Source: Pseudofulvimonas gallinarii (GTDB taxonomy: Bacteria > Pseudomonadota > Gammaproteobacteria > Xanthomonadales > UBA2363). From it: a stretch of 51,519 nt of DNA. The notes below the pieces were generated by a model. The model saw nothing but the letters and a program-made list of their open reading frames with translations. It was not told where the DNA came from and did no database searches. This document shows, piece by piece, positions 3,775 to 47,735 of this stretch. A program made the translations under genes and the position numbers. Location of the stretch: contig NZ_SMAF01000022.1 in NCBI RefSeq assembly GCF_004343305.1, positions 1-51,519 of the forward strand, given 5' to 3'. How positions within the stretch are numbered: the stretch's first letter is position 1; every line of letters starts with the position of its first letter.

Positions 3775-5025
3775 TCACACGCCGAGGACGATGTCCTCGG
3801 CCTGCAGGGTGTCGAGGCGGATGCGGTTGGCGAACAGCGAGAAGGCGAGCAGGCCGGCGAGGTTGCCGCTGCGTTCGGCCCAGTGCGGCAGGTAGGTCGG
3901 TGGCACCAGCCAGCCGGCCTCGAAGAACGGTTCCAGCGCCAGCACGTCGTGCAGCGCCAGCTTGCCGGCGAAGATCCAGCGCAGCAGGTTCAGGCGGCGA
4001 TGCTTGAGCGCCCAGCGGAAGAAGGTGTGAACCGACAGCAGGCCGTGCAGATAGACGGTGTCCTTGCAGAAGGCGCCGCCGCCGGTGACCGGCACGCCGC
4101 GGAACACGCGCATGCTCGACGCGAAGCTGTCGACCTTGCTCTGCCCGGCGTCGCGGAAGAAGCGGTAGACCTCGACGAAGTCGGCGCCCTGGATGGCGCG
4201 GTCGATGGCCAGGATGCGCAGCGAGATGCGCTTCATGCGCCGGATGTCGATGCAGCCGGTGATCTGTTCGGCGAACGTGGCCAGTCCTTCCTGGGTGGCG
4301 GTGACGCGCGGCGAACTTTGCGCCAGGCTGCGGAAGTGTGGCTGCTCGCGCCCGTTGATCGCCGTCAGCGAATGCACCAGGACCTCGTGTTCGAGCAGCT
4401 GGCGGACATCGGCGGCGGAGAAATGACTGCCGGAGCGCAGGCGCACGCGGGTGGCGCCGGCGGCCGCCTTGGCGACCAGTTCCGGATCGAGCTGCACCTG
4501 GATGCGGTGGTGGTCGAAGACGGCATCGATGGCCGCCTGCATGCGATCGCGCGCGATCTCGGCGGGAATGACGGCGGCGCTGTCGGCGTCGTCGAGTTCG
4601 GCGTCGAGCTCGTCGGCCAGCACGATGAAGTGGCCGGCGGCATCGACGTTGGTCCAGTGGCTGCCGGGCAGCGGTTCGCCGGGCGTGCCGTACAGTCGCG
4701 CCGACAGCGAGCCGACGACCGGACTGCCCAGCGATTCGATGATCTCGGCAGCGAGGTGGTAGGCGCCGGCACTGCGGCGCAGGTAGTCGCCGACAGGATG
4801 GGTCGCGTCGGCGGCCAGTGCGATGGCATCGAGTTCGCGACGCGTGTCCGACAGGTCGATGCGCGGGTATTCGACGACGGGCAGCGTCGGCGTGGCGTCG
4901 TCGGCGCCGGCGAGGAAGGCGTTCTGCACCGAAGCCGGCCAGCTGGCCGCGGAGAGCAGGCGGATCGGCCTGGCGGCGGCAACCAGGCGCGCATCGAGGG
5001 CGGCGTAGTGTTCGAGATCGCTCAC
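3775..5025 (-). CDS. DUF1704 / flavohemoglobin-expression-modulating QEGLA protein; MATCAP-like metallopeptidase, 416 aa
   Basis: The family (PF08014, TIGR02421) includes vertebrate MATCAP, a zinc tyrosine carboxypeptidase acting on tubulin; the bacterial substrate is unknown. The HExxxH motif (HEVLVH) lies at about residues 213-218 and the name-giving QEGLA motif near 243. The QEGLA glutamate is the likely third metal ligand (inference). No signal peptide is visible, so the protein is probably cytoplasmic. The start is GTG at 5025, overlapping the rsgA stop as GTGA, so it is probably translated by ribosomes finishing rsgA. Length is normal for the bacterial family. Claims that the family modulates flavohemoglobin rest on old annotation. 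Confidence 0.88.
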   Translation of the reverse strand: MSDLEHYAALDARLVAAARPIRLLSAASWPASVQNAFLAGADDATPTLPVVEYPRIDLSDTRRELDAIALAADATHPVGDYLRRSAGAYHLAAEIIESLGSPVVGSLSARLYGTPGEPLPGSHWTNVDAAGHFIVLADELDAELDDADSAAVIPAEIARDRMQAAIDAVFDHHRIQVQLDPELVAKAAAGATRVRLRSGSHFSAADVRQLLEHEVLVHSLTAINGREQPHFRSLAQSSPRVTATQEGLATFAEQITGCIDIRRMKRISLRILAIDRAIQGADFVEVYRFFRDAGQSKVDSFASSMRVFRGVPVTGGGAFCKDTVYLHGLLSVHTFFRWALKHRRLNLLRWIFAGKLALHDVLALEPFFEAGWLVPPTYLPHWAERSGNLAGLLAFSLFANRIRLDTLQAEDIVLGV

Positions 5026-18850: not shown

Positions 18851-21673
18851 ATGCAGACCCTCCCAATGCGAACATTGATCCTGTTTGGCGCCATGGTCGC
18901 CAGCCTCGCCCGGGCCGACACGGCCATCGACATTCCCTACCAGACCTTCAGCCTCGACAACGGGCTGCGCGTCGTCGTGCATACCGACCGCAAGGCACCG
19001 GTCGTCGCCATCAACATCTGGTACCACGTCGGTTCCAAGGACGAGCAGCCGGGCCGCACCGGCTTCGCGCACCTGTTCGAGCACCTGATGTTCCAGGGCA
19101 CGGAAAACTACAACGACGAGTTCTTCAAGCCGTTCGAAATGGTCGGCGCTACCGACATGAACGGCACGACCAGCTTCGACCGCACCAACTACTTCGCCAA
19201 CGTGCCGACCACGGCGTTGGACCTCGGCCTGTGGATGGCGTCCGAGCAGATGGGTCATTTCCTCGGCAGCGTCGACCAGGCGCGGCTGGACGAACAGCGC
19301 TCGGTGGTGCAGAACGAGAAGCGCCAGAGCGAGAACCAGCCCTACGGCATGGTGTGGCAGCACCTGTTGTCCTCGCTGTTCCCGGCCGGGCACCGCTATG
19401 CGCACCTGCCCATCGGTTCGATGGCCGACCTGGATGCGGCGACGCTGGATGACGTGCGCTGGTGGTTCCGTTCCTGGTATGGGCCGAACAACGCCGTCCT
19501 GGTGCTGGCCGGGGACATCGACCTGGAAACCGCGCGCACCAAGGTCACGCGCTATTTCGGCGACATTCCCGCCGGCCCGACGATGGCGCAGCCACCGGTC
19601 GACGTGCCGGCGCGCAAGGCCTCGACGCGCGCGACGCTGCCCGACCGCGTCGCCCAGACGCGCCTGTACCGCGCCTGGGTGACACCCCAGTTCGGCAGTC
19701 GCGATGAGACCCATCTCAAGCTGATCGGCGAGATCCTCGGCGGCAGTGCCGCCTCGCGCCTGGACCGCCGCCTCGTCCACCAGGAAAAGCTGGTCGACAT
19801 GGTTTCGGCATTCTCTGGCGCCGACCAGCTGGCGGGGACTTTCATCATCGTCGCCGACATCAAGCGCGGCGTGGATCCGGCGCGCGTGGAAGCGGCAATC
19901 GACGAGGAGATCGAACGCCTGCGCCGGCGCGGGCCGGATCGCGCGGAACTGGATCGCGCACGCACCAGCATTCGCGCCACCTTCGTGCGCGCGATCGAGC
20001 ATGTCGGCGGTTTCTCCGGCAAGGCCGACGTGCTGGCGCAGTGCACCGTGCTGACCGGCGATCCCGGCTGCTTCCGGCAGGCGCTGGCGCGGGTCCAGGG
20101 CGCGAGCAGTCGCGACCTGCGCAATGCGGCGCGCCAGTGGCTGGCTGCTGGCAGCCACACCGTTCTGGTCGAGCCCGGCGAACGTCCGGCGCAGGCCGAG
20201 GACGTCGTCAGTGGCGATCCGGGCGAACTGCCGGAGGTGGCTGCCGCCGATCCGCGCTATCGCACCGTCGCCAGCGACGTCGACCGCAGTGCCGGCCCGC
20301 CGAAGGTAGAGGTATTCCCCGACCTGGCATTCCCGACCCTGCAGCGCAGCCGCCTCGACAACGGGCTGGCCGTGGTGCTCGCGCGCCGCGAAGGCCTGCC
20401 GCTGGTGCAGATGAGCCTGGAAATCGAAGGCGGCTACAGCGCCGATGCCGGACGCAAGCCGGGGACCGCCAGCTTCACCATGAACATGCTGCCGGAAAGC
20501 GCCGGCGGTCGATCCGCCCTGGAACTGGCAGCCGCGGCGGAAAGCCTCGGTGCGCGAATCGGCAGCGGTGCTTCGCTCGACGCCGGCAACATCAGCCTGT
20601 CGGTGCTGCACGAAAACCTGGCGCCGGCGCTGACCCTCTATGCCGACGTGATCCGGCGCCCGGGCTTTTTCGTCACCGACATCGAGCGCGTGCGCGCGCA
20701 GTGGCTCGCCGGCATCGCCCAGGAAAAGACCCAGCCGGGCAGCCTGGCGATGCGCCTGTTGCCACCGTTGCTGTACGGGCGCGACCACCCCTACGGCATC
20801 CCGTTCACCGGCAGCGGCGACGAGGCGTCCATCGTCGCGCTGCAGCAGGATGACCTGATCGCGTTCCACCGCGACTGGGTGCGCCCGGACAACGCCACGC
20901 TGATCGTGGTCGGGGATATCGCAATGGACGAACTGCTGCCGCTGCTGGAGAAGCACCTGGGGGACTGGAAGGCGCCGGAAACGCCGCGGCCGCTGCTGCA
21001 TCGAGGCACGGTGCCGCGACCGTCGGCGGCGCGCGTGTTCCTCGTGGACCAGCCCGGCGCGGTGCAGGCGAACATCCTCGTCGGCCAGGTGGTGCCGTCC
21101 ACGGCCGATCCCTCGTCGCTGGCGTTCGACATCGGCAACGGCGTCATCGGCGGCACCTTCACCTCGCGCCTGAACATGAACCTGCGCGAGGACAAGGCCT
21201 GGTCCTACGGCGTCAGCACCGGCGCCAGCAATGCGCTCGGGCAGCGGCCCTGGATCGGCTATGCGCCGGTGCAGATCGACCGCACCGCCGAGGCCATCAC
21301 CGAGATCCGTCGCGAGATCGCCGAGTTCACCGGCACCCGTCCACCTTCAAGCGGCGAAATCGCACACATCCGCACCAACCGCGTGCACCGGCTGCCGGGA
21401 TCCTTCGAGACCGGCACCGCCGTTCTCGGCGCCATTGCCGCCATCGTTCGCTATGGGCGCCCGGACGACTACGTCACCTCGCTGCGCCGGCAGATCCTCG
21501 ACACCAGCGACGACCAGGTCAGGGCCGCCATGTCGGTGATCGACGCGGAGGCGTTGACCTGGGTGGTCGTCGGCGACCTGGCCACCATCGAGGCGCCGGT
21601 CCGCGCCCTGGAACTGGGCGAGGTCACGGTGCTGGATGCCGACGGCCGGCCGAAAACCGCCACCGCGGAATGA
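18851..21673 (+). CDS. Periplasmic two-domain M16 zinc peptidase, 940 aa
   Basis: The product is a pitrilysin-family peptidase with two tandem M16 units. The N-terminal unit has the inverted zinc motif HLFEH (His74-Glu77-His78) and downstream RSVVQNEKR, which holds the third ligand. The second unit (from about residue 500, LDNGLAVVLARREG) lacks HxxEH and should be the inactive partner half, as in other fused M16 proteins. Residues 6-22 (MRTLILFGAMVASLARA) form a signal peptide. ATG 18851 and ATG 18866 are both possible starts, and neither has a strong ribosome site. The likely role is degradation of oligopeptides in the periplasm. Confidence 0.92.
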   Translation: MQTLPMRTLILFGAMVASLARADTAIDIPYQTFSLDNGLRVVVHTDRKAPVVAINIWYHVGSKDEQPGRTGFAHLFEHLMFQGTENYNDEFFKPFEMVGATDMNGTTSFDRTNYFANVPTTALDLGLWMASEQMGHFLGSVDQARLDEQRSVVQNEKRQSENQPYGMVWQHLLSSLFPAGHRYAHLPIGSMADLDAATLDDVRWWFRSWYGPNNAVLVLAGDIDLETARTKVTRYFGDIPAGPTMAQPPVDVPARKASTRATLPDRVAQTRLYRAWVTPQFGSRDETHLKLIGEILGGSAASRLDRRLVHQEKLVDMVSAFSGADQLAGTFIIVADIKRGVDPARVEAAIDEEIERLRRRGPDRAELDRARTSIRATFVRAIEHVGGFSGKADVLAQCTVLTGDPGCFRQALARVQGASSRDLRNAARQWLAAGSHTVLVEPGERPAQAEDVVSGDPGELPEVAAADPRYRTVASDVDRSAGPPKVEVFPDLAFPTLQRSRLDNGLAVVLARREGLPLVQMSLEIEGGYSADAGRKPGTASFTMNMLPESAGGRSALELAAAAESLGARIGSGASLDAGNISLSVLHENLAPALTLYADVIRRPGFFVTDIERVRAQWLAGIAQEKTQPGSLAMRLLPPLLYGRDHPYGIPFTGSGDEASIVALQQDDLIAFHRDWVRPDNATLIVVGDIAMDELLPLLEKHLGDWKAPETPRPLLHRGTVPRPSAARVFLVDQPGAVQANILVGQVVPSTADPSSLAFDIGNGVIGGTFTSRLNMNLREDKAWSYGVSTGASNALGQRPWIGYAPVQIDRTAEAITEIRREIAEFTGTRPPSSGEIAHIRTNRVHRLPGSFETGTAVLGAIAAIVRYGRPDDYVTSLRRQILDTSDDQVRAAMSVIDAEALTWVVVGDLATIEAPVRALELGEVTVLDADGRPKTATAE

Positions 21674-21777
21674 GGGCCGGGCGGTTCCGGGGACGGCCCC
21701 GGAACCGCCATCGCCGTCACGGTCCGTCCCGCCGCGACTCGAGTACCATCGGGCGCTCCTGTGGGGGGAATCCAACG

Positions 21778-23577
21778 ATGGACGGATCAAGCGTTTCAGG
21801 CGTCGCCACTTCGCGACGGCAGTTTCTTTCCGGCACGCAGGCATCGCAGGCCAAGGCGATGCGCCAGGTGCTGACACCGCCCTTCGCGGTGTATGTCCTC
21901 AACCGCCTCGGCTACGGCCCACGCCGCGGCACGCCTTTCAGCGTCGAGGCCTTCAACGCGCTGGGTGCCAACGACGACGCGCGCCTGACGGCGTTCGTCG
22001 ACCAGCAGCTCAATCCCTCGACCAACCCGGCCGGTGACGTCACCGATCCCGACGTCGCCGCGCGTCTGGCGCACGAGAACTACACCACGCTCGGCAAGAC
22101 CTTCGAGCAGCTGTGGCAGGACCACGAAGTCAACGGCAATCCGAGCGGCGGTCCGTATACGCGCGACCTGCCGATCCGCGAGATCGAACGCGCCGTGTTC
22201 GTGCGCGCGACCTACTCGCGCTGGGGCCTGTTCGAGCAGATGGCGGACTTCTGGCACAACCACTTCAACATCTACGGCTATGACCGCTACGCGGCGCCGA
22301 CGTGGGTGAGCTGGGACCGCGACGTCATCCGTCGCAACGCGCTCGGCAACTTCCGCAGCATGCTGCAGGCGACGTTCGACTCGCCGGCGATGCTGTATTA
22401 CCTCGACAACTACATCAACCGCGCGCCGAGCTTCAACGAGAACTACGCGCGCGAGATCATCGAGCTGCACACGCTGGGCTCGATCAACTACCTCGGCGCG
22501 AACCTGCAGCAGCATGAGGTGCCGGACATTCCCGCCGGCCAGCCCGGCGCGGGGTGGCCGGTCGGCTATGTCGATGCCGATGTCTATGAACTGGCGCGCG
22601 CGTTCACCGGCTGGACCTTCCATCGCGGTGCCAGCGGCGGGCCGAACACCGGCGTCGCCTACATGATCCCGGCCCAGCACGACATCGGGCAGAAAAACGT
22701 GCTCGGCCAGTTCGTCGCTGCGAACACGCCGTACGCCACCGAGCACCAGCTGTTCCTCGACCGCCTTGCCTACCATCCGGGCACGGCGCGCCATATCGCC
22801 CTGAAGCTGGCGCGGCGCTTCGTCAGCGACGCTCCGCCGCAGGAGCTGGTGGACCATGTCGCCAACGTGTTCTGGCAGAACCGCATGGCGCCGGACCAGA
22901 TCCGCCTCACGCTGCGTGCGCTGCTGCTGCACGATGCCGGTCCCGGTTCGTTCCGCGATATCGGCAACTTCGGCAACAAGGTGAAGAAGCCGTTCGAGGC
23001 GGTGGTCGGCGCCTTGCGCGCGGTGAGCGCCGACTTCACCATCCGCCGCGACGACAGCGAGAGCAATTCCTTCATGGACCGCTTCCGTAGAAGCGGCCAC
23101 CGGCCGTTCGACTGGCGGCCACCCGACGGTTTTCCCGACGACCGCAACTACTGGCTGGGCGGCGGTGCCTTCGTGCACGCCTGGCGCACGGTGGACTGGG
23201 TGCTGGACGAGAACACCGGCAGCAACCAGGGTGATCCGCTGGCGCCGGTGCTGGCGATCACGCAGAACGAGTTCAGCAATTCACCGGCGGAACACACGCC
23301 CAACAAACTGGCGAACTTCTGGCTGCGGCGTGCGCTGGGCTGGGCGCCGGATCCGGTCAACGGCTGGGCGGGCACGCCGCTGCACACGGCGATCCGCGAT
23401 TTCATGGCGCGCAACACGGACACGGTGAGCCTGTTCAATCCCGATGTCGGCATCGGCAACGGTCCTTCCGGCAACACTGCCGGCCTGGGAACCGATGGCA
23501 GCCCGAACTACTGGCACAGCCGCCTTCGGGGCATGGTCGGCTGCATCCTGTTCAGTCCGCAGTTCATGGCCCGCTGA
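21778..23577 (+). CDS. DUF1800 domain protein, Tat-exported, 599 aa
   Basis: ATG 21778 follows GGGGGGAA. The N-terminus carries a twin-arginine-like motif (TSRRQFLSG), so export folded through Tat is probable. The DUF1800 body shows LNRLGYGPRRG, ADFWHNHFNIYG, NENYAREIIELHTLG and YELARAFTGWTF, strongly conserved in the family, then KLARRFVSDAPP. The family is of unknown biochemical role; these genes nearly always precede a DUF1501 gene, as here (10 bases between stop and next start), and the two proteins are assumed to act together. The long upstream open frame was rejected because of the ribosome site. Confidence 0.93.
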   Translation: MDGSSVSGVATSRRQFLSGTQASQAKAMRQVLTPPFAVYVLNRLGYGPRRGTPFSVEAFNALGANDDARLTAFVDQQLNPSTNPAGDVTDPDVAARLAHENYTTLGKTFEQLWQDHEVNGNPSGGPYTRDLPIREIERAVFVRATYSRWGLFEQMADFWHNHFNIYGYDRYAAPTWVSWDRDVIRRNALGNFRSMLQATFDSPAMLYYLDNYINRAPSFNENYAREIIELHTLGSINYLGANLQQHEVPDIPAGQPGAGWPVGYVDADVYELARAFTGWTFHRGASGGPNTGVAYMIPAQHDIGQKNVLGQFVAANTPYATEHQLFLDRLAYHPGTARHIALKLARRFVSDAPPQELVDHVANVFWQNRMAPDQIRLTLRALLLHDAGPGSFRDIGNFGNKVKKPFEAVVGALRAVSADFTIRRDDSESNSFMDRFRRSGHRPFDWRPPDGFPDDRNYWLGGGAFVHAWRTVDWVLDENTGSNQGDPLAPVLAITQNEFSNSPAEHTPNKLANFWLRRALGWAPDPVNGWAGTPLHTAIRDFMARNTDTVSLFNPDVGIGNGPSGNTAGLGTDGSPNYWHSRLRGMVGCILFSPQFMAR

Positions 23578-23587
23578 GGAGGACGAC

Positions 23588-24937
23588 ATGTCACAGATCA
23601 CGCGTCGCGCCTTCATCAAGGGTTCCACCCTCTGCCTGACCGCACTGGGTGGCATGCGCCTGGGCCTGCATGCGCGGCGCGCGCATGCCGACTGGCAGAC
23701 CGGCAATTTCTTCGTCTATGTCTACCTGCGGGGTGGCATCGACGGATTGAACATGGTGTGTCCGATCGATGGTCCGGACCGGGCGCACTACGAGATGCAC
23801 CGCCCGAACATCCACCTGCGCACCACGGGTGCGACCGCGGCGCTGCCGCTGGGCAACACGCATTACGGACTGAACTTCGCCGCCACCGGGCTGCACGAGC
23901 TGTATGGCCAGGGCAGGCTTGCGATCGTGCATGGCACCGGGTTCCCGGTGGCGCAGATCACCCGTTCGCATTTCGATGCCCAGGACTACATGGAGCACGG
24001 CACGCCGGGCAGCAACACCATCGGCACCGGTTGGCTGGCGCGACACCTGCAGGCCACCGGGCAGGTGCCCGACAGCGCGATGATTCCCTCCCTGAGCGTC
24101 GCCGCCAACGCGCCGACCAGCCTGCTCGGCCGTCGCGACAACATGGTCCTGGACGATCCCAACAGCTTCCATCCCAACGCCAACAACGGCAATGTCGATG
24201 GCCAGCCGCGCTACAAGCTGTCGACGACCATGACGCTGCGCCAGCTCTACCAGGGCAACGACGACCTGCATCATGCCGGCACCGGCGCCGTGGACACCAT
24301 CGAGCTGGTCGATACGCTGGGCATTTCCAGCTACACGCCGGCACCGGGCGCCAACTACCCGTCCACCGGCGTCGCGGCGACGCTCGGCAACCAGGCCAAG
24401 CTGATCGCCAACATCGCCAAGCGCGGACTGGGACTGCAGGTCGCCACGCTGGACTACGGCGGCTGGGACAGCCACGAGAACCAGGGCGACGGCACCCAGG
24501 GCGACCTCAACCAGAACCAGTACGCGAACCGCCTTGCCGGGCTGTCGGCGACGCTGCACGCGCTGTACACCGACCTCGCCGCGGCCGGGCTGCACAACCG
24601 CATGGTGCTGGTGGTGCACAGCGAATTCGGGCGCCGCGTGCGCGAGAACGCCAACCGCGGCACCGACCACGGCAGTGGCAACCCGATGCTGGTGCTGGGT
24701 GGCCGCGTGCGTGGCGGCCAGCTGTTCGGCACCTTCGGGGGCCTCGGGCCCGGCCAGCTGTACCAGAACGAGGACGTCGCCTCGACGACCGACTTCCGGC
24801 GCGTGCTGTCGGAAGTGGTGGCCGGCCACCTGGGCAATCCCGACCTGGCGTCGGTATTTCCGGGCTATGACTATCCCGGTCCGCTCGGACTGCTGCCGGG
24901 CGATCCGCTCTTCGCCAACGGATTCGACCCGGCCTGA
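23588..24937 (+). CDS. DUF1501 domain protein, Tat-exported, with GDPLFANGF C-terminal tail, 449 aa
   Basis: ATG 23588 follows a strong GAGGAGG. The leader has a twin-arginine motif (TRRAFIKG) and a hydrophobic core ending ARRAHA. The body shows LRGGIDGLNMVCPI, AIVHGTGFPVAQITRSHFDAQDYMEHG, ATLDYGGWDSHENQG and VHSEFGRRVRENANRGTDHG, the signature blocks of DUF1501, a member of the alkaline phosphatase/sulfatase-like superfamily. The phosphatase-type metal residues are only partly evident, so enzyme activity is not assured. The last 12 residues, GDPLFANGFDPA, lie outside the domain and resemble the end of the giant secreted protein at 42522-47735. Confidence 0.93.
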   Translation: MSQITRRAFIKGSTLCLTALGGMRLGLHARRAHADWQTGNFFVYVYLRGGIDGLNMVCPIDGPDRAHYEMHRPNIHLRTTGATAALPLGNTHYGLNFAATGLHELYGQGRLAIVHGTGFPVAQITRSHFDAQDYMEHGTPGSNTIGTGWLARHLQATGQVPDSAMIPSLSVAANAPTSLLGRRDNMVLDDPNSFHPNANNGNVDGQPRYKLSTTMTLRQLYQGNDDLHHAGTGAVDTIELVDTLGISSYTPAPGANYPSTGVAATLGNQAKLIANIAKRGLGLQVATLDYGGWDSHENQGDGTQGDLNQNQYANRLAGLSATLHALYTDLAAAGLHNRMVLVVHSEFGRRVRENANRGTDHGSGNPMLVLGGRVRGGQLFGTFGGLGPGQLYQNEDVASTTDFRRVLSEVVAGHLGNPDLASVFPGYDYPGPLGLLPGDPLFANGFDPA

Positions 24938-41935: not shown

Positions 41936-42521
41936 GTGGTGGGCGACAGGCTGCACGGGGCGGCGCCCTGAGCGGCCGCCCGCCAGCGGGCTGGGGCCAG
42001 GCCGGCCGATTCCCGGCCCCCGGTTCCTGTAAACCTGCGGGCGTCTGACGTATAGTCGCCACGGCATAGTCGCCAGCCTGCCGAGGGGAGTTGGGGGAGA
42101 GGCGGTCAGGTGGAACGGTCTGCGCCTCGCGCGCAACGGACCCGCATGACGCCAGACATGGGAGTGTCTGGCGGCGGTTCGCATCCAGGTCGTCCACTCG
42201 CAAGACCGACGTGCAACGTTGATACCGGGCCAGCCTTCAGCGGCAGTGCCCCGGGCTCCTGGCAGCCATTGCATGGATGCTGGCGTTCACGGCCTTGTGC
42301 CTGAAAGGCACAGGCCACTTCCCGCGAATGGGAATGCGCAAGTCATCAGTTCCGCCACCGCGGACGGCCGCTCAGGCCGTTGTCGCCCCGCTGCACGGAT
42401 CCGCGCCGTGCCAAACCCCTGGACAGACGCCGCTTCCGGCCCCCGGATGCTGTGTGCTCCTGCTGCGCCGAGCGGCAACGTCGATCATCAATGTGACCGG
42501 GTTACAAGGAGGTTTCCTGCC
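41936..42521. other. Intergenic region upstream of the giant secreted protein, 586 bp
   Basis: The region holds a GC-rich hairpin soon after maeB (GGGCGGC 41958-41964 with GCCGCCC 41975-41981) and two copies of ATAGTCGCCA (42052-42061 and 42066-42075), 14 bases apart. The first overlaps TATAGT at 42051-42056, a possible -10. If that is the start, the leader of the giant gene is about 460 bases long, which leaves room for post-transcriptional control. Plus-strand frames open here but lack ribosome sites. Confidence 0.45.
42506..42513 (+). promoter_or_regulatory. Ribosome binding site deciding the start of the giant protein
   Basis: AAGGAGGT, a full match to the anti-Shine-Dalgarno, lies eight bases before ATG 42522. 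The frame is open 101 codons further upstream, but only this start has a ribosome site and is followed by a signal peptide. Confidence 0.85.
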
Positions 42522-45500
42522 ATGAAAGTGATGTCCGAAGTCCGGGCCGGCCACGGCCTGTCATTCCTCTGGCCATGGTTCCTGATCGTGCTGGGGCTGT
42601 GCCTGGCTTTGTCCGGTGGGCGCAGCGCGAACGCGCAGTCGGTGGTCGACGAATTCCGCGTCGACAGCAATGGGCCGGTGAACGTGGTTCTCGCGCAGCC
42701 GGATGGCCAGTTGCTGGTCGGCGGCCAGTTCACGACATGGAACGGGCAGGTCCTGGGCAGCCTGGGGCGCCTGATTCCGGATGGCAGCCGCGACGCCACA
42801 TTCGCCCCTGGCATTGTCGGGGAGGTGTACAGCGTCGCCCTGCAGCCGGATGGCAAGGTGCTGGCGGCGGGCGCCTTTACCCAGGTTGCGGGTGTGGCGC
42901 AGGCGGGACTGGTCCGGCTCGATGCCGATGGCAGCCTGGATGCCACCTTCATGCCGGTCGTCAACGGACCCGTCCATGTGGTGGTGATCCAGACTGATGG
43001 CGGTGTGCTGGTCGGTGGCGATTTCTCGCAGGTGAACGGCGTGGCGCGAGCGAACCTGGCGCGTCTCCATCCGGACGGCACGCTGGATCCCGCGTTCATG
43101 CCCGATGCCAACGGACGCGTGCTGGCGATGCTGGTACTTGCCGATGGTCGCATCGTTGTCGGCGGCGAGTTCACCCAGATCGGCGGTGAACCGCGAAGCC
43201 GCGTGGCGCGCCTGCATCCCAATGGCAGTGCCGACGCCACCTTTGCCGCCGATGCCGACCAGCCTGTGTTGGCCATGGCACTGCAAATCGATGGCGGGCT
43301 TGTCCTTGCGGGCGAATTCACCGAGCTGGGCGGTGTGCCCCGTGCCCGGCTGGCACGGCTGCACAGCGATGGCAGTGTCGATGCCGCTTTCTCGACGGGT
43401 GCTGATCAGGCAGTCCGAACGGTGAGTGAGCTGGCCGATGGCAAGCTGGTCGTGGGCGGCGATTTCACCCAGGTGGCGGGGCAGGTGCGCAATCGCATGG
43501 CGCGTCTGAACCACGATGGCAGCCTCGACGCCAGTTTCAGTCCGTCGTTCAACGCTGCGGTGCGGGCAACGACAGTTCAAGCCGATGGCAAGGTCGTCGT
43601 GGGCGGCCTGTTCACGCAGTCAGGCGGGCAGTCCAGACCGCACCTGTTGCGCCTGGCGGCTTCAGGCGGCGTTGAGCAGACATTCCAGGTCGGCACGGAC
43701 AGACGGGTCAGCAGCCTCGCCGTCCTGCCCGGTGGCCGAGTGCTGATGGGTGGCGAGTTCTCTGTGGTGGCCGGCCAAGCGCAAACGGGCATTGCGCGAC
43801 TGAATCCGGAGGGCGGGCTCGACACAACGTTCAGTACTTCGGTCAGCGGCAGGGTCAATGCGCTGGCGGTGCAGCCCAACGGTAAGGTTCTGATCGGCGG
43901 CTCCTTCATGTCAGTGGGCGGTATCCCGCGCCTCAACCTCGCGCGATTGAATGCGGATGGCAGTGTGGATCCGAGTTTTGTCGCCGACGCCTACGGCGGC
44001 GAGGTGTTTGACGTGGCCTTGCAGCCAAACGGCAAAGTAATCGTGGTCGGCCTGTTCACCACCATCAACGGCCAACATCAGCGCGGTATAGCGCGACTGA
44101 ATCCGGATGGGAGTCTGGAACCGGGTTTCTGGAACTGGAACATCGAGGGCAGCATCCACGCCGTGGCTGTGCTAGAGGATGGCGCGATTCTGATCGGTGG
44201 CAGCTTTTACAAAATCCATTACACGTTTATTAATGGTCTTGCGCGAATCAAGCCTGATGGTAGTTTTGACTTCGAATACGATCCGAAACTGAACAGCGGA
44301 GCCTATGCTTTCGCCAGGCAACCGGATGGCAAAGTTCTGGTCGGCGGCCTGTTCTCCAGCGCCTTTGGCCAGTCCCGACAGGCATTGTTGCGTTTGAACG
44401 CGAACGGCAGTCTGGACACCTCGTTCACCAGTCCATTGAGCAGCGGACAGGTCGAGGCCATCGCCCTTCAAATGGACGGGAAGGTGCTGGTCGGCGGCTC
44501 TTTCGCTGGAGTGGGTGGGCAGGCCCGAACCAATCTCGTCCGACTCCACCCGGATGGCAGCCTGGACAGTTCGTTTGCGGCCGATACAAACGGAATGGTG
44601 CGGGACATCGCCCTGCAGACCGATGGAAAGGTGGTGCTGGGTGGTGAATTCACCACGGTGCAGGGCGTGCCGCGTTCGCGGATCGCTCGCCTGAGCATCC
44701 CGGATGCAGCCGTTCAGCGTATTGATGAGACGTTCGACCGCTGGCAGCTGCGCTGGATGCGGGCCGGCGCCGGCCCTGAGCTGGAAAAGGTGTGGTTTGA
44801 GCGCTCCGACAATGGTGCCCAGTACAGCTTCCTGGCGGACGCCGTTCGCATCGACGGCGGCTGGTCGGCACCGTTGCCGGCACGGTTGCCCAAGGAGCAG
44901 AGCCTATGGCTGCGCGCGCGCGGCAGCGTCGCCGGTTCAATGCATCAGTCCGTGCGGATGTACCACCACCCACTGCTGCACAAGGTGACCGTCCGCTCCC
45001 AAGGCGGAGGCACTGCGGGACCCGCGCAGCAGACCGTCAACGACGGCGCGCCGGTGACGTTCACCGCGATTCCGGATGCCTGGCACAACGTATCGGTCAC
45101 CGGTGATACCTGTTCGCCGGTGGCCAATGGCGACGGCAGCTGGAGCGTGTCCGCCGTCACCGATGACTGCGTGATCAGCGTCCAATTCAGTCCGTTTCAG
45201 TACACCGTGAGCGTCAGCACGGAGGGCAACGGCACCGCATTGCCGGTGTCGCAACAGGTCGATCACGGCAACCAGGCCGTGTTCTCGCTGCCGCCGGCGA
45301 CGGGCCACTACGTCGCATCGGCGACCGGTGACACCTGCACCGTGAGTGCGATCGGCAACAATCAATGGCAGACCTCGGACATCACCGAAGACTGCGCCAT
45401 CGCCGTGACGTTCCTGCGGCGGCAGTACACCGTCACTGCCCAGTTCACCGGCAATGGTTCCGTGTCGCCGCTGGTCCAGACCATTGCCCATGGTGACCCT

Positions 45501-47735
45501 GCCGTCTTCACCCTGCTGCCGGACCCCAACCATCGGGTGTTATCGGCTGTCGGCGACACCTGCGCGTTGGTCGACAACGGAGACGGCACATGGGTCACTG
45601 GCGGCATCGCCGCCGACTGCGCGATCTCCATCAGCTTCGATATCAACCGGTACACACTGAGTGCGACGGTTACGGGTCCGGGAACGGTTTCGCCGACCGT
45701 GCAAACGGTTCCTCACGGCGGGTCGGCGTCGCTGTCCACGATGACCACTCCCGGACACCAGCTCGTCGCCTTCTCTGGCGACACCTGCACCCCGGTATCA
45801 ACCGGCACCTCCACCTGGGCCGTGTCGAACGTGATCGACGACTGTGGCCTCGTGGCCGTATTCGACGTCGCGCGTTACACGGTCACCGGTCTGGCCATCG
45901 GTCAGGGTGTGGTCGATCCCGGCTCGCAGACGGTGCTTCATGGCGGTGAGGCAACCCTGACGGTTGCGGCAGCACAGGGCCATCACCTGGTCTCGGTCAT
46001 CGGCGACACCTGCACACCGGTCGATCAGGGCGGCGGCAGCTGGAAGGCTGCGACTATCACCGCCGCCTGCACCATCACCGCGACCTTCGCCGCCGACCCG
46101 ATCACCGTGACCGCCGTCTCAACCGGCCCCGGCAGCGTTTCGCCAGGCACGCAAGTGGTGGACTTTGGCAGCACGGCGCTGATCACCGTGCTGCCGGACA
46201 GCGGCTATCAGGCAGCCGCGGTGAAGGGCGATACCTGCAGCCTGTCCGACCAGGGCGACGGGCTATGGAGGACCTCGGTACTGACCGGAGACTGTGCAAT
46301 CACCGTCACCTTCGCCCTCAGCACCTATCCGGTCACGGTGGACATCATTGGCGAGGGCGCGGTGACGCCCACATCGCAGGCGGTGCCGCATGGCGGAACC
46401 GCCACGCTCGCGGTGACGCCGGCCGCCGGGCACTATCTGGCAACGCTGAGCGGTGACACCTGCAGCGTTCAGGCCAGCGGCAGTGGCAGCTGGGGCACCG
46501 GCGCGCTGACCGCGGCCTGCCATCTCACGGCGACCTTCCATGCCGCGCGGACCGATGGCTGCTTCGTGCGCGCCACCGCCACCGGCGCCGCGGACGGCAC
46601 GTCCTGGCATGACGCCTATGTGTCGCTGCAGCCCGCCCTGGCGGATCCTGGCTGCCACCGCATCCACATTGCCGCCGGCCACTTCCGTCCAGTGGACCCG
46701 GTGGACGCGGACGCTGTCACACCGGGCGAGCGGGCCGCGACGTTCCTTGTCGACCGCAGTACCCAGCTGCTCGGCGGCTATCCGCCCGCCGGCGGCACGG
46801 CTGCCGAGCGTGACCCGGGCCGCTTCCCGACCGTTCTTTCCGGCGACCTGGACAGCAACGACCTCGGCGAGTCAGGCATCACGGGGCATTTCACCGACAT
46901 TCGTGGCGACAACAGTTTCCATGTCGTCACCATCGATGCGCCCGGCGGCGTGGTGGCGCTGGATGGTCTGGTGATCAGCGGTGGTCTGGCCGATGAACGC
47001 AGTGGCGGGCGCGACTTCGGGGCCGGCATCCATCAGCACGCGGGAAGCAGCGCGCTGTCGCGTGCGCGGCTGCTTGGGCATCAGGCCTATCGCGGCGGCG
47101 CCGTCTTTGTGGCAGCGGGTGACCTCACGCTGATCGAGTCCGAGGTGGCCGGCAATTACGCGGCCGAATACGGTGGCGCCGCGTTCGCGGGTGCCGGCGA
47201 CGGTCAGCCCGCGGCGCTGGCGCTGGAACAGGTCACGGTCTCTGCCAACGCCGCCGGCGTGCAGGGCGGCGGCGTGTTCACCGGCGCCGGCAGTCTGCTG
47301 AGCCTGGACTACGTCACCGTGACCGGCAACGAGGCACCTGCAGGTGCCGGGCTCCATCATGCCGGCGAGCAGGCGATGCTGACCGCCAGCGTGTTGGCCC
47401 TCAACACGGGCGGCGACTGCGAGTGGGTGTCGGGCGACCTGCTGGTGGAATTCAGCCTGGTCGGTGACGGCGGTTGTGACGTGCTGCCCGGGGCGAATGG
47501 CAACCTGGTCGGCGAACCGGACCTGCAGAGCCTGGGCGGCTACGGCGGTCCGACCCGCACGCATCTGCCGCGTGCGGACAGCCCGCTGATCGACGCCGTG
47601 CCCTGTAGTCCGGCGACCGGTTTCACCGACCAGCGCGGCGTGATTCGACCCCAGGGCGATGCCTGCGACATGGGCGCCGTGGAGCGGGAGGCCGTGCCTG
47701 GCGACCGCATCTTCGCCCATGGATTCCAATCGTGA
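42522..47735 (+). CDS. Giant secreted protein: delta-60 propeller repeats, 75-aa C-W-C repeats, beta-helix, GDRIFAHGF tail, 1737 aa
   Basis: The signal peptide ends near residue 40 (SANAQ). Residues 42-738 hold 14 delta-60 repeats of about 48 residues (pattern ALQPDGKVLVGGxF...RLxxDGSLDxxF). A typical delta-60 closing segment follows to about 819. Residues 820-1343 are seven InlB-B-like repeats, six of exactly 75 residues, each with Cys-x9-Trp-x8-Cys after GDT. Residues 1344-1726 resemble a parallel beta-helix ending in a choice-of-anchor-Q stretch (DQRGVIRPQGDACDMGAVE). The last residues GDRIFAHGFQS match the DUF1501 tail. It is probably a cell-surface or released protein; the function is unknown. 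The ribosome site is perfect (AAGGAGGT). Confidence 0.93.
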   Translation: MKVMSEVRAGHGLSFLWPWFLIVLGLCLALSGGRSANAQSVVDEFRVDSNGPVNVVLAQPDGQLLVGGQFTTWNGQVLGSLGRLIPDGSRDATFAPGIVGEVYSVALQPDGKVLAAGAFTQVAGVAQAGLVRLDADGSLDATFMPVVNGPVHVVVIQTDGGVLVGGDFSQVNGVARANLARLHPDGTLDPAFMPDANGRVLAMLVLADGRIVVGGEFTQIGGEPRSRVARLHPNGSADATFAADADQPVLAMALQIDGGLVLAGEFTELGGVPRARLARLHSDGSVDAAFSTGADQAVRTVSELADGKLVVGGDFTQVAGQVRNRMARLNHDGSLDASFSPSFNAAVRATTVQADGKVVVGGLFTQSGGQSRPHLLRLAASGGVEQTFQVGTDRRVSSLAVLPGGRVLMGGEFSVVAGQAQTGIARLNPEGGLDTTFSTSVSGRVNALAVQPNGKVLIGGSFMSVGGIPRLNLARLNADGSVDPSFVADAYGGEVFDVALQPNGKVIVVGLFTTINGQHQRGIARLNPDGSLEPGFWNWNIEGSIHAVAVLEDGAILIGGSFYKIHYTFINGLARIKPDGSFDFEYDPKLNSGAYAFARQPDGKVLVGGLFSSAFGQSRQALLRLNANGSLDTSFTSPLSSGQVEAIALQMDGKVLVGGSFAGVGGQARTNLVRLHPDGSLDSSFAADTNGMVRDIALQTDGKVVLGGEFTTVQGVPRSRIARLSIPDAAVQRIDETFDRWQLRWMRAGAGPELEKVWFERSDNGAQYSFLADAVRIDGGWSAPLPARLPKEQSLWLRARGSVAGSMHQSVRMYHHPLLHKVTVRSQGGGTAGPAQQTVNDGAPVTFTAIPDAWHNVSVTGDTCSPVANGDGSWSVSAVTDDCVISVQFSPFQYTVSVSTEGNGTALPVSQQVDHGNQAVFSLPPATGHYVASATGDTCTVSAIGNNQWQTSDITEDCAIAVTFLRRQYTVTAQFTGNGSVSPLVQTIAHGDPAVFTLLPDPNHRVLSAVGDTCALVDNGDGTWVTGGIAADCAISISFDINRYTLSATVTGPGTVSPTVQTVPHGGSASLSTMTTPGHQLVAFSGDTCTPVSTGTSTWAVSNVIDDCGLVAVFDVARYTVTGLAIGQGVVDPGSQTVLHGGEATLTVAAAQGHHLVSVIGDTCTPVDQGGGSWKAATITAACTITATFAADPITVTAVSTGPGSVSPGTQVVDFGSTALITVLPDSGYQAAAVKGDTCSLSDQGDGLWRTSVLTGDCAITVTFALSTYPVTVDIIGEGAVTPTSQAVPHGGTATLAVTPAAGHYLATLSGDTCSVQASGSGSWGTGALTAACHLTATFHAARTDGCFVRATATGAADGTSWHDAYVSLQPALADPGCHRIHIAAGHFRPVDPVDADAVTPGERAATFLVDRSTQLLGGYPPAGGTAAERDPGRFPTVLSGDLDSNDLGESGITGHFTDIRGDNSFHVVTIDAPGGVVALDGLVISGGLADERSGGRDFGAGIHQHAGSSALSRARLLGHQAYRGGAVFVAAGDLTLIESEVAGNYAAEYGGAAFAGAGDGQPAALALEQVTVSANAAGVQGGGVFTGAGSLLSLDYVTVTGNEAPAGAGLHHAGEQAMLTASVLALNTGGDCEWVSGDLLVEFSLVGDGGCDVLPGANGNLVGEPDLQSLGGYGGPTRTHLPRADSPLIDAVPCSPATGFTDQRGVIRPQGDACDMGAVEREAVPGDRIFAHGFQS
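44979..46550 (+). repeat. Seven-copy 225-bp coding repeat within the giant gene
   Basis: The first copy is 222 bp and the next six are exactly 225 bp each, beginning at 45201, 45426, 45651, 45876, 46101 and 46326. Protein similarity is clear but DNA similarity is only moderate, so these are old repeats kept in register by selection. Confidence 0.9.

Follow-up and report, generated by a model that had tools for sequence, protein, structure and literature searches.

Two tailed exported proteins in the window

The window, i.e., the whole stretch of 51,519 nucleotides analysed here, encodes two unrelated exported proteins that end in a similar tail (Table 1). One is a DUF1501 protein (PF07394, 89.5 bits, cut-off 27) with a Tat-type export signal, RRAFIKG, and the other a delta-60 repeat protein with a Sec-type signal, both signals being recognized by eye; they agree with the first-pass annotation, which had called both proteins exported. 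It had also counted seven identical positions out of nine between GDPLFANGF and GDRIFAHGF. The shared core stands, but the actual count is six, with P/R, L/I and N/H differing.

Choice-of-anchor domains owe their name to their position ahead of variable anchors, and the second tail starts four residues past such a domain (NF041518). Neither GDPLFANGFDPA nor GDRIFAHGFQS contains a hydrophobic helix or a basic end, and the CTERM models were not matched by these tails. Similarly, the models for the Por secretion (T9SS) C-terminal domain in NCBIfam and Pfam gave no match, with the window proteins at E<=1 or with the tails tried at E<=10. No similar tail was found on the other frames of at least 120 amino acids in the window.

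Table 1. Positions of the genes and putative tags in the window, and of the catcher gene encoded elsewhere in the same genome.
Feature	Position	Strand	Remarks
Putative strand tag 1, GDPLFANGFDPA	24899..24934	+	C-terminus of the DUF1501 protein; stop codon 24935-24937
DUF1501 protein	23588..24937	+	likely start at the Tat signal MSQITRRAFIKG, chosen by eye; reading frame opens at 23444
Putative strand tag 2, GDRIFAHGFQS	47700..47732	+	C-terminus of the delta-60 repeat protein; stop codon 47733-47735
Exported protein with delta-60 repeat, InlB-B-like repeat and choice-of-anchor Q domain	42522..47735	+	likely start MKVMSEVRAGHGLSF, chosen by eye; reading frame opens at 42219
Choice-of-anchor Q domain	47517..47687	+	NF041518, 64.2 bits, cut-off 25; residues 1767-1823
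DUF1800 protein (context)	21670..23577	+	PF08811, 311.7 bits; adjoins the DUF1501 gene; no tag
Candidate catcher of the same genome	G000:C2:180452-181168	-	outside the window

Distribution of the tail

At the DNA level, the pattern GD.[IL]F..GF is matched 16 times in the 3.45 Mb genome to which the window belongs, and the reversed pattern not once; the tail is therefore not a product of chance. Fourteen of these matches begin 10-18 codons ahead of a stop codon, and an export signal is visible on 13 of the 14 proteins concerned (11 found by a simple script, with the DUF1501 protein (Tat) and L165 added by eye); in the fourteenth, L168, a signal peptide lies in another frame. The two remaining matches lie right behind a signal peptide (L172) and inside a long exported protein (L170). 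L172 (G000:C19, motif at locus position 4618) is sulfatase-like by eye and has GDPIFANGFEQ at its mature N-terminus.

Two of the 14 C-terminal tags are on neighbouring paralogues (L161). Apart from these, the tagged proteins are of many kinds, including DUF1501, delta-60 repeat, beta-helix, subtilase (with DUF11) and Ig-like proteins, and several tagged proteins have no Pfam match. At L168 (G000:C9) the first of two neighbouring paralogues ends in TLFADGFESIH, without GD, so that the strict pattern undercounts tags. The 60-nt flanks up- and downstream of the tag copies are on average about 30% identical, too little for DNA that has been copied as a repeat, and the copies also differ at third codon positions.

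The impression that similar tails occur in related genomes proved correct, and the tag is lineage-wide. Within the order, 43 of 61 genomes (the genome of the window included) contain a match to the pattern, false matches among them, and 15 of 30 loci read, one per genome, are C-terminal tags. This count includes L044, with an open frame of only 34 codons, and leaves out L024, which lies 19 from the stop in a 38-codon frame and has no acidic residue after GF. Among the matches listed, C-terminal tags are mostly from Lysobacterales (Dokdonella, Rudaea, Tahibacter, Chiayiivirga, Marinicella, Wenzhouxiangella and Pseudomarimonas) and Acidobacteriota. Counting a record as C-terminal when the stop is at most 35 codons away and more than 60 codons precede the tag, we found 57 of 60 Lysobacterales records and 10 of 16 Acidobacteriota records among the matches listed to be so placed, both groups having been assigned by hand from record titles. 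Set apart from these 76 were 22 'other' records, of which one (L148) is C-terminal among those listed, 13 unspecified proteobacterial records and three from delta or unclassified sources.

The tail is longer in Acidobacteriota, where it reads GD.IF.DGFESGDTSAWS.TVP followed by the stop and typically comprises 22 residues. The tag is also found at the mature N-terminus in L100, L113 and L144, and inside linkers or RHS-like proteins in L117, L123 and L201. Those in RHS-like proteins (by eye; L117, L123, L201) come from both Lysobacterales and Acidobacteriota and are apparently insertions. Tandem tags, two or three in a row, occur in L081 (Marinicella pacifica), at G049:C9:64371-64427 and in L095.

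Several pattern matches were rejected as tags: in relatives, GD.[IL]FLFGFSRG and GDRFFIRGF, which we take to be DUF2235-like and TonB-receptor-like, respectively, and several further matches that are out of frame or internal. GDAIFRDGFEP occurs in three alphaproteobacterial records (L090, L110, L116) that are alike; this looks like an enzyme family with a coincidental string. In 226 genomes of the class outside the order, only four single matches were found, none of them C-terminal. Chance was rejected as the source of the tag because the reversed control was empty and this class sample contained nothing but these four.

The best DUF1501 homologues of 30 genomes, judged by reading, fall into 18 with a tail-like end and 12 without. 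Several of the 18 tails are divergent (SPDLIFKSGFD, DPEIIFRSGME, GDDMTSDGFE), and the untailed homologues stop where the tail would begin. By sequence comparison, the tail on DUF1501 homologues is an add-on. All 18 tailed homologues are in genomes with the catcher described below, as are 10 of the 12 untailed ones. The homologue of G062 (Acidobacteriota) is 44% identical to the window DUF1501 protein over 460 residues and has a tail of the Acidobacteriota form.

The tail resembles the first strand of a jelly-roll domain

The string GD.IF.DGFESG..SAW corresponds, in an AF2 model, to strand 1 of a jelly roll of the ConA-like type. Complete domains of some 209 residues that begin with this string occur in Chloroflexi, in Acidobacteriota, including genomes that also have tags, and in phage-like contigs. 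As most full-domain loci were found with patterns containing the string, its position at the domain start is not an independent result, but the presence of the domain behind it is. The model, which represents the full domain of a Chloroflexi record and not the catcher itself, was built from 14 sequences and has a mean pLDDT of 89.9 and a pTM of 0.90, with residues 3-5, part of the tag, as strand 1. With six sequences the tag region was modelled with low confidence (blocks of pLDDT 49 and 59), which was resolved with 14.

VIA Z was 20.8 to the glucuronan lyase 2zzj (198 residues aligned, 2.5 A, model residues 2..209) and 18.0 to Cip1 (3zyp, model residues 4..209), and the best 50 structure matches range from Z 15.6 to 20.8. 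Most of the listed ConA-like folds align from residue 1-4, and a few PL7 lyases from residue 9. The full domain is accordingly modelled as a ConA-like jelly roll that includes strand 1. Jelly-roll domains opening with the strand-1 string IF.DGFESGD are also present on viral contigs (L355-L362), and the scan of viral contigs gave no match to the catcher of the window's genome.

A secreted catcher and two points of division

Genomes with tags additionally contain a gene for a small secreted jelly-roll protein without strand 1, here termed the catcher. Stand-alone secreted domains in these genomes match the full-domain profile from position 12 at the earliest; the first such matches start at 15-26, apart from one row at 48 that was rescored at 16. 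In these comparisons, the catcher appears to lack the strand that the tag would supply.

The point of division differs between the two main groups. In Lysobacterales the tag ends with DGFE, and the catcher starts after its signal peptide with C..[SAN]AW (C..[IL]SAW or similar); a C..W start is found in 29 of the 30 catcher loci of the order, 23 of which were aligned. For G043 the script match fell in the signal peptide, and the alignment shows CVVTNW. In Acidobacteriota the tag continues through SAWS, and the catcher starts beyond it with a sequence resembling SLDVxAAAL. Among the matches listed, the C-terminal tag contains Trp in 1 of 57 Lysobacterales and in 10 of 10 Acidobacteriota records; conversely, 13 of 14 catchers of the Acidobacteriota type have no Trp at the start, the exception being G063, with a Trp at the signal-peptide border. 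Either the tag or the catcher thus carries the conserved Trp. Together with the catcher starts, this shift indicates that the domain is split in two alternative places, and in either case tag and catcher together make up approximately the whole. At the sequence level, we regard both the existence of the two parts and the division of the domain between them as established.

Co-distribution of tag and catcher

The gene that is distributed together with the tag is that of the secreted jelly-roll protein without the strand resembling the tag. Its profile matches 39 of the 61 genomes of the order, mostly with one copy each. It is absent from all eight genomes of family f2, from six of seven of f7 and from five of seven of f12; the two catcher-bearing f12 genomes are the two tag-rich ones (14 and 16 matches), and the sole catcher-bearing f7 genome (G055) encodes a DUF1501 protein with a tail. 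The tag pattern has 186 matches in the 39 catcher genomes versus 15 in the 22 others, and at least three matches in 22 of 39 versus 0 of 22, counts that are not independent because the genomes are related. All 15 C-terminal tags among the 30 loci read are in catcher genomes, and none of the nine loci from catcher-less genomes is a C-terminal tag. In seven catcher genomes (G006, G036, G040, G044, G050, G056, G057) GD..F..GF is absent; the DUF1501 proteins of G056 and G050 have a divergent tail despite this.

Catcher profile matches were obtained in all 16 named tagged genomes, and a stand-alone catcher was read in eight of eight Lysobacterales and six of eight others, the latter comprising seven titled Acidobacteriota or a class thereof and one titled Deltaproteobacteria. 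G067 showed just a row of suitable length, and in the tail-rich G062 no stand-alone catcher was seen. Dokdonella fugitiva has 29 pattern matches and one match to the catcher profile. The genome of Wenzhouxiangella sp. 15190 (G071) gave the catcher match at the same place and with the same score as G028, a genome of the window's order, which is accordingly that of Wenzhouxiangella. Outside the order, the catcher profile was found in one of 226 genomes of the class, a marginal match (G151), with at most 12 candidates scored per genome; the class sample consisted of 229 genomes, three of them of the order itself.

We examined 80 genomes from the class to which G061 belongs (Thermoanaerobaculia by title). 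Of these, 13 have at least seven matches, full domains included, and are regarded as tail-rich, and 10 of the 13 show a stand-alone catcher, at most 38 candidates being scored per genome. Four of these 10 were already in the earlier set; among the nine new tail-rich genomes, six have a catcher. No catcher was found in tail-rich G344, with all candidates scored, nor in G368 and G369 among the best 38 of 110 and 38 of 229 candidates, respectively. The rest of the 80 comprise two with a catcher and no listed tails (G309, G357), 62 without matches and three with one or two matches and no catcher. The genome sequences establish that tag and catcher are co-distributed.

Gene order around the catcher

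In 19 of the 30 catcher loci, the domain is followed by a dockerin-like repeat pair of 56-77 residues (by eye), and 10 end with the domain, that of the window's genome included. The best reading frame of G044 was misread; it is counted among 20 loci with an end of at least 45 amino acids and not among the 19. Three catchers were compared with the dockerin model PF00404: G004 scored over the cut-off (27.5 bits), G021 below it (15.3) and G036 had no match. Cohesin was the one partner family looked for across the genomes, and its model PF00963 (E<=0.001) matched 11 of the 61, 10 of them over the cut-off. Ten of these 11 have a catcher with a dockerin-like end, and the other, G034, has no catcher; most genomes with dockerin-type catchers have no PF00963 match. 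In seven genomes the cohesin lies 286-874 nt downstream of the catcher (G005, G020, G027, G047, G050 and G055 over the curated cut-off, G009 below it).

We read 25 of the 29 dockerin-type genomes, leaving out G043, G044, G051 and G057, and in 23 of these stretches a downstream gene encodes a secreted protein whose C-terminus shows, by eye, the IPTL-type succession of proline motif, hydrophobic helix and basic end; the stretches of the two others (G012, G017) are truncated. Between the catcher and the IPTL-type gene there is usually a gene for a small secreted protein of some 150 residues. Four downstream proteins were compared with the IPTL-CTERM model: G033 was over the cut-off (29.4 and 24.7 bits), G036 below it, and G004 and G021 gave no match, despite which a hydrophobic helix and a basic end are visible in both. 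The next gene in G021 ends in LLIDGFE, a divergent tail. A catcher with a dockerin-like module is also seen outside Lysobacterales, at L390 (G309).

In the genome of the window the catcher ends with the domain, no dockerin follows, and PF00963 is unmatched (G000); nor was a PF00963 cohesin found in its genus. Near dockerin-less catchers, a small secreted protein (cluster c2, five genomes) and an Ig-like protein (cluster c4, six genomes) recur. These two clusters and L163:6915-7415 (minus strand) may take the place of the cohesin and anchor genes there.

Glycosyltransferase, DUF2304 and sulfotransferase genes are found near the catcher in several genomes, including the dockerin-type G033, and such neighbours suggest surface-polysaccharide loci. 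The surroundings of the catchers at L343, L344, L346, L347 and L350 contain GT2, GT4, sulfotransferase (one by Pfam, the others by eye) and phosphoglycerol-transferase-like genes (by eye). Beside the catcher of the window's genome, no polysaccharide gene was recognised.

A strand-complementation model and its alternatives

We consider it likely that the tail acts by strand complementation, in which it would form strand 1 of the jelly roll on many cargoes, the catcher would contribute the rest of the domain, and the two would link the cargo to a shared adaptor. Unrelated exported proteins would carry the first beta-strand (plus turn) of the ConA-like jelly roll, the remainder being produced a single time, in the form of the small secreted catcher; following export through Sec or Tat, the tag of a cargo would be taken up by the catcher and the fold completed. 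In many relatives, the catcher, the small secreted protein and the cohesin-like anchored protein appear to form an operon, and the dockerin-like module on the catcher, together with a cohesin-like protein with an IPTL-type membrane anchor, would hold the cargo at the envelope. In the lineage of the window, the dockerin-less catcher probably acts alone, perhaps binding surface polysaccharide. Findings that speak against the model are the tail-rich genomes in which no stand-alone catcher was seen (G062, G344 and, among the 38 candidates scored in each, G368 and G369), the catcher genomes with no listed tails or no pattern match, the 10 tailless DUF1501 homologues in catcher genomes and, for the window's own genus and genome, the missing PF00963 match and the lack of a recognised polysaccharide gene next to the catcher. 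Binding of tag and catcher, the envelope location and the function are what we infer from the arrangement. We also lean, a little more cautiously, towards a broader reading, in which two phyla share a natural, genome-wide strand-tag/catcher system: a strand of 10-22 residues (C-terminal, mature N-terminal or internal) would plug dozens of exported proteins into one incomplete jelly-roll adaptor, in many lineages docked via cohesin-dockerin on a membrane-anchored protein.

The proposal that the tail is a sorting, anchoring or secretion tag holds in so far as it occurs lineage-wide on exported proteins, and anchoring fits best. A transpeptidase-cut C-terminal sorting signal it does not resemble, because it has no transmembrane or basic stretch and also occurs N-terminally and internally. 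Tag and catcher could also bind with the catcher serving as an export or folding escort, e.g., towards type II secretion, instead of an anchor. This would suit the catchers of the window's lineage, without dockerin or anchor, and a cargo of typically extracellular types (subtilase, beta-helix and, by eye, sulfatase-like); against it, 23 genomes have a dockerin-like catcher upstream of an IPTL-type anchored protein, which is an anchoring layout, and we consider the escort unlikely, though the most serious of the alternatives. Less probable still is that another machine reads the tail as a signal for sorting or secretion and that the jelly-roll protein is an unrelated lectin sharing only ancestry with the tag. 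The strong C-terminal bias (14 of 16 in the window's genome, 57 of 60 in the Lysobacterales records listed) would be expected of such a signal, and some tail-rich genomes show no catcher. However, the part missing from the catcher matches the tag, the split shifts in step in two phyla, the presence of tag and catcher goes together, and the tag is also found at mature N-termini and inside proteins.

That the tail has no tag function, but structurally caps the last domain of the protein it belongs to or is left over from a jelly roll since lost, might be supposed from its resemblance to a cut-off domain start and from the full domains in the same Acidobacteriota genomes. Yet the tail is found behind folds that are unrelated (DUF1501, beta-helix, subtilase plus DUF11, Ig-like), tailless DUF1501 homologues end right where it would start, and its sequence is kept with flanks near chance identity; we therefore think this very improbable. 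The many copies per genome, in places that tolerate insertions, could finally recall the insertion of mobile or repeated DNA at the ends of genes, an explanation to which the dissimilar 60-nt flanks (~30% identical) and the varying third codon positions leave practically no room.

Relation to known systems

Full-text literature searches, judged from the search results alone, returned no published account of such a tag/catcher system. In chaperone-usher pili, an N-terminal pilin extension completes an Ig-like fold in the polymer (donor-strand complementation). There, as in strand complementation of the jelly roll, a partner supplies a missing beta-strand in trans, but here one strand on many unrelated cargoes would complete one ConA-like jelly roll. 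SpyTag/SpyCatcher was engineered from the split CnaB2 domain and likewise combines a short strand tag, usable at the N-terminus, the C-terminus or in loops, with a catcher domain; in contrast, the present pairs would be natural, genome-wide and of another fold, and nothing in the sequences points to an isopeptide bond. Cohesin-dockerin scaffolds (cellulosomes) share the principle of a modular adaptor, and cohesin (over the cut-off in 10 of 61 genomes) and dockerin-like modules (by Pfam over the cut-off in one of three compared) occur in these gene runs, although here the dockerin-like module is on the catcher and the cargo has a strand of 10-22 residues.

Like PEP-CTERM, IPTL-CTERM, LPXTG and T9SS signals, the tag is a C-terminal mark on many exported proteins, and one window tail follows a choice-of-anchor domain. 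Unlike PEP-CTERM, IPTL-CTERM, GlyGly-CTERM and LPXTG signals, the window tails are without a transmembrane helix and basic end; in contrast to CTERM and T9SS signals, the tag is also N-terminal and internal, and neither the window proteins nor the tails tried gave a match to a CTERM or T9SS model. In its fold, the complete domain agrees with glucuronan and alginate lyases, Cip1 and GH16 jelly rolls, here divided into two genes.

If the strand-complementation model is correct, an exported protein would be addressed by a single strand of a fold, the rest of that fold being encoded by another gene; such an address would differ both from sorting signals that are cleaved and from domains of secretion systems. 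The two lineages, whose split points differ, would be a natural experiment on dividing a domain between genes, and the tag/catcher pairs would be available, as natural ones, for protein engineering. For exported proteins of unknown function, such as DUF1501, delta-60 repeat, choice-of-anchor, beta-helix and RHS-like proteins, the model would provide a testable destination.
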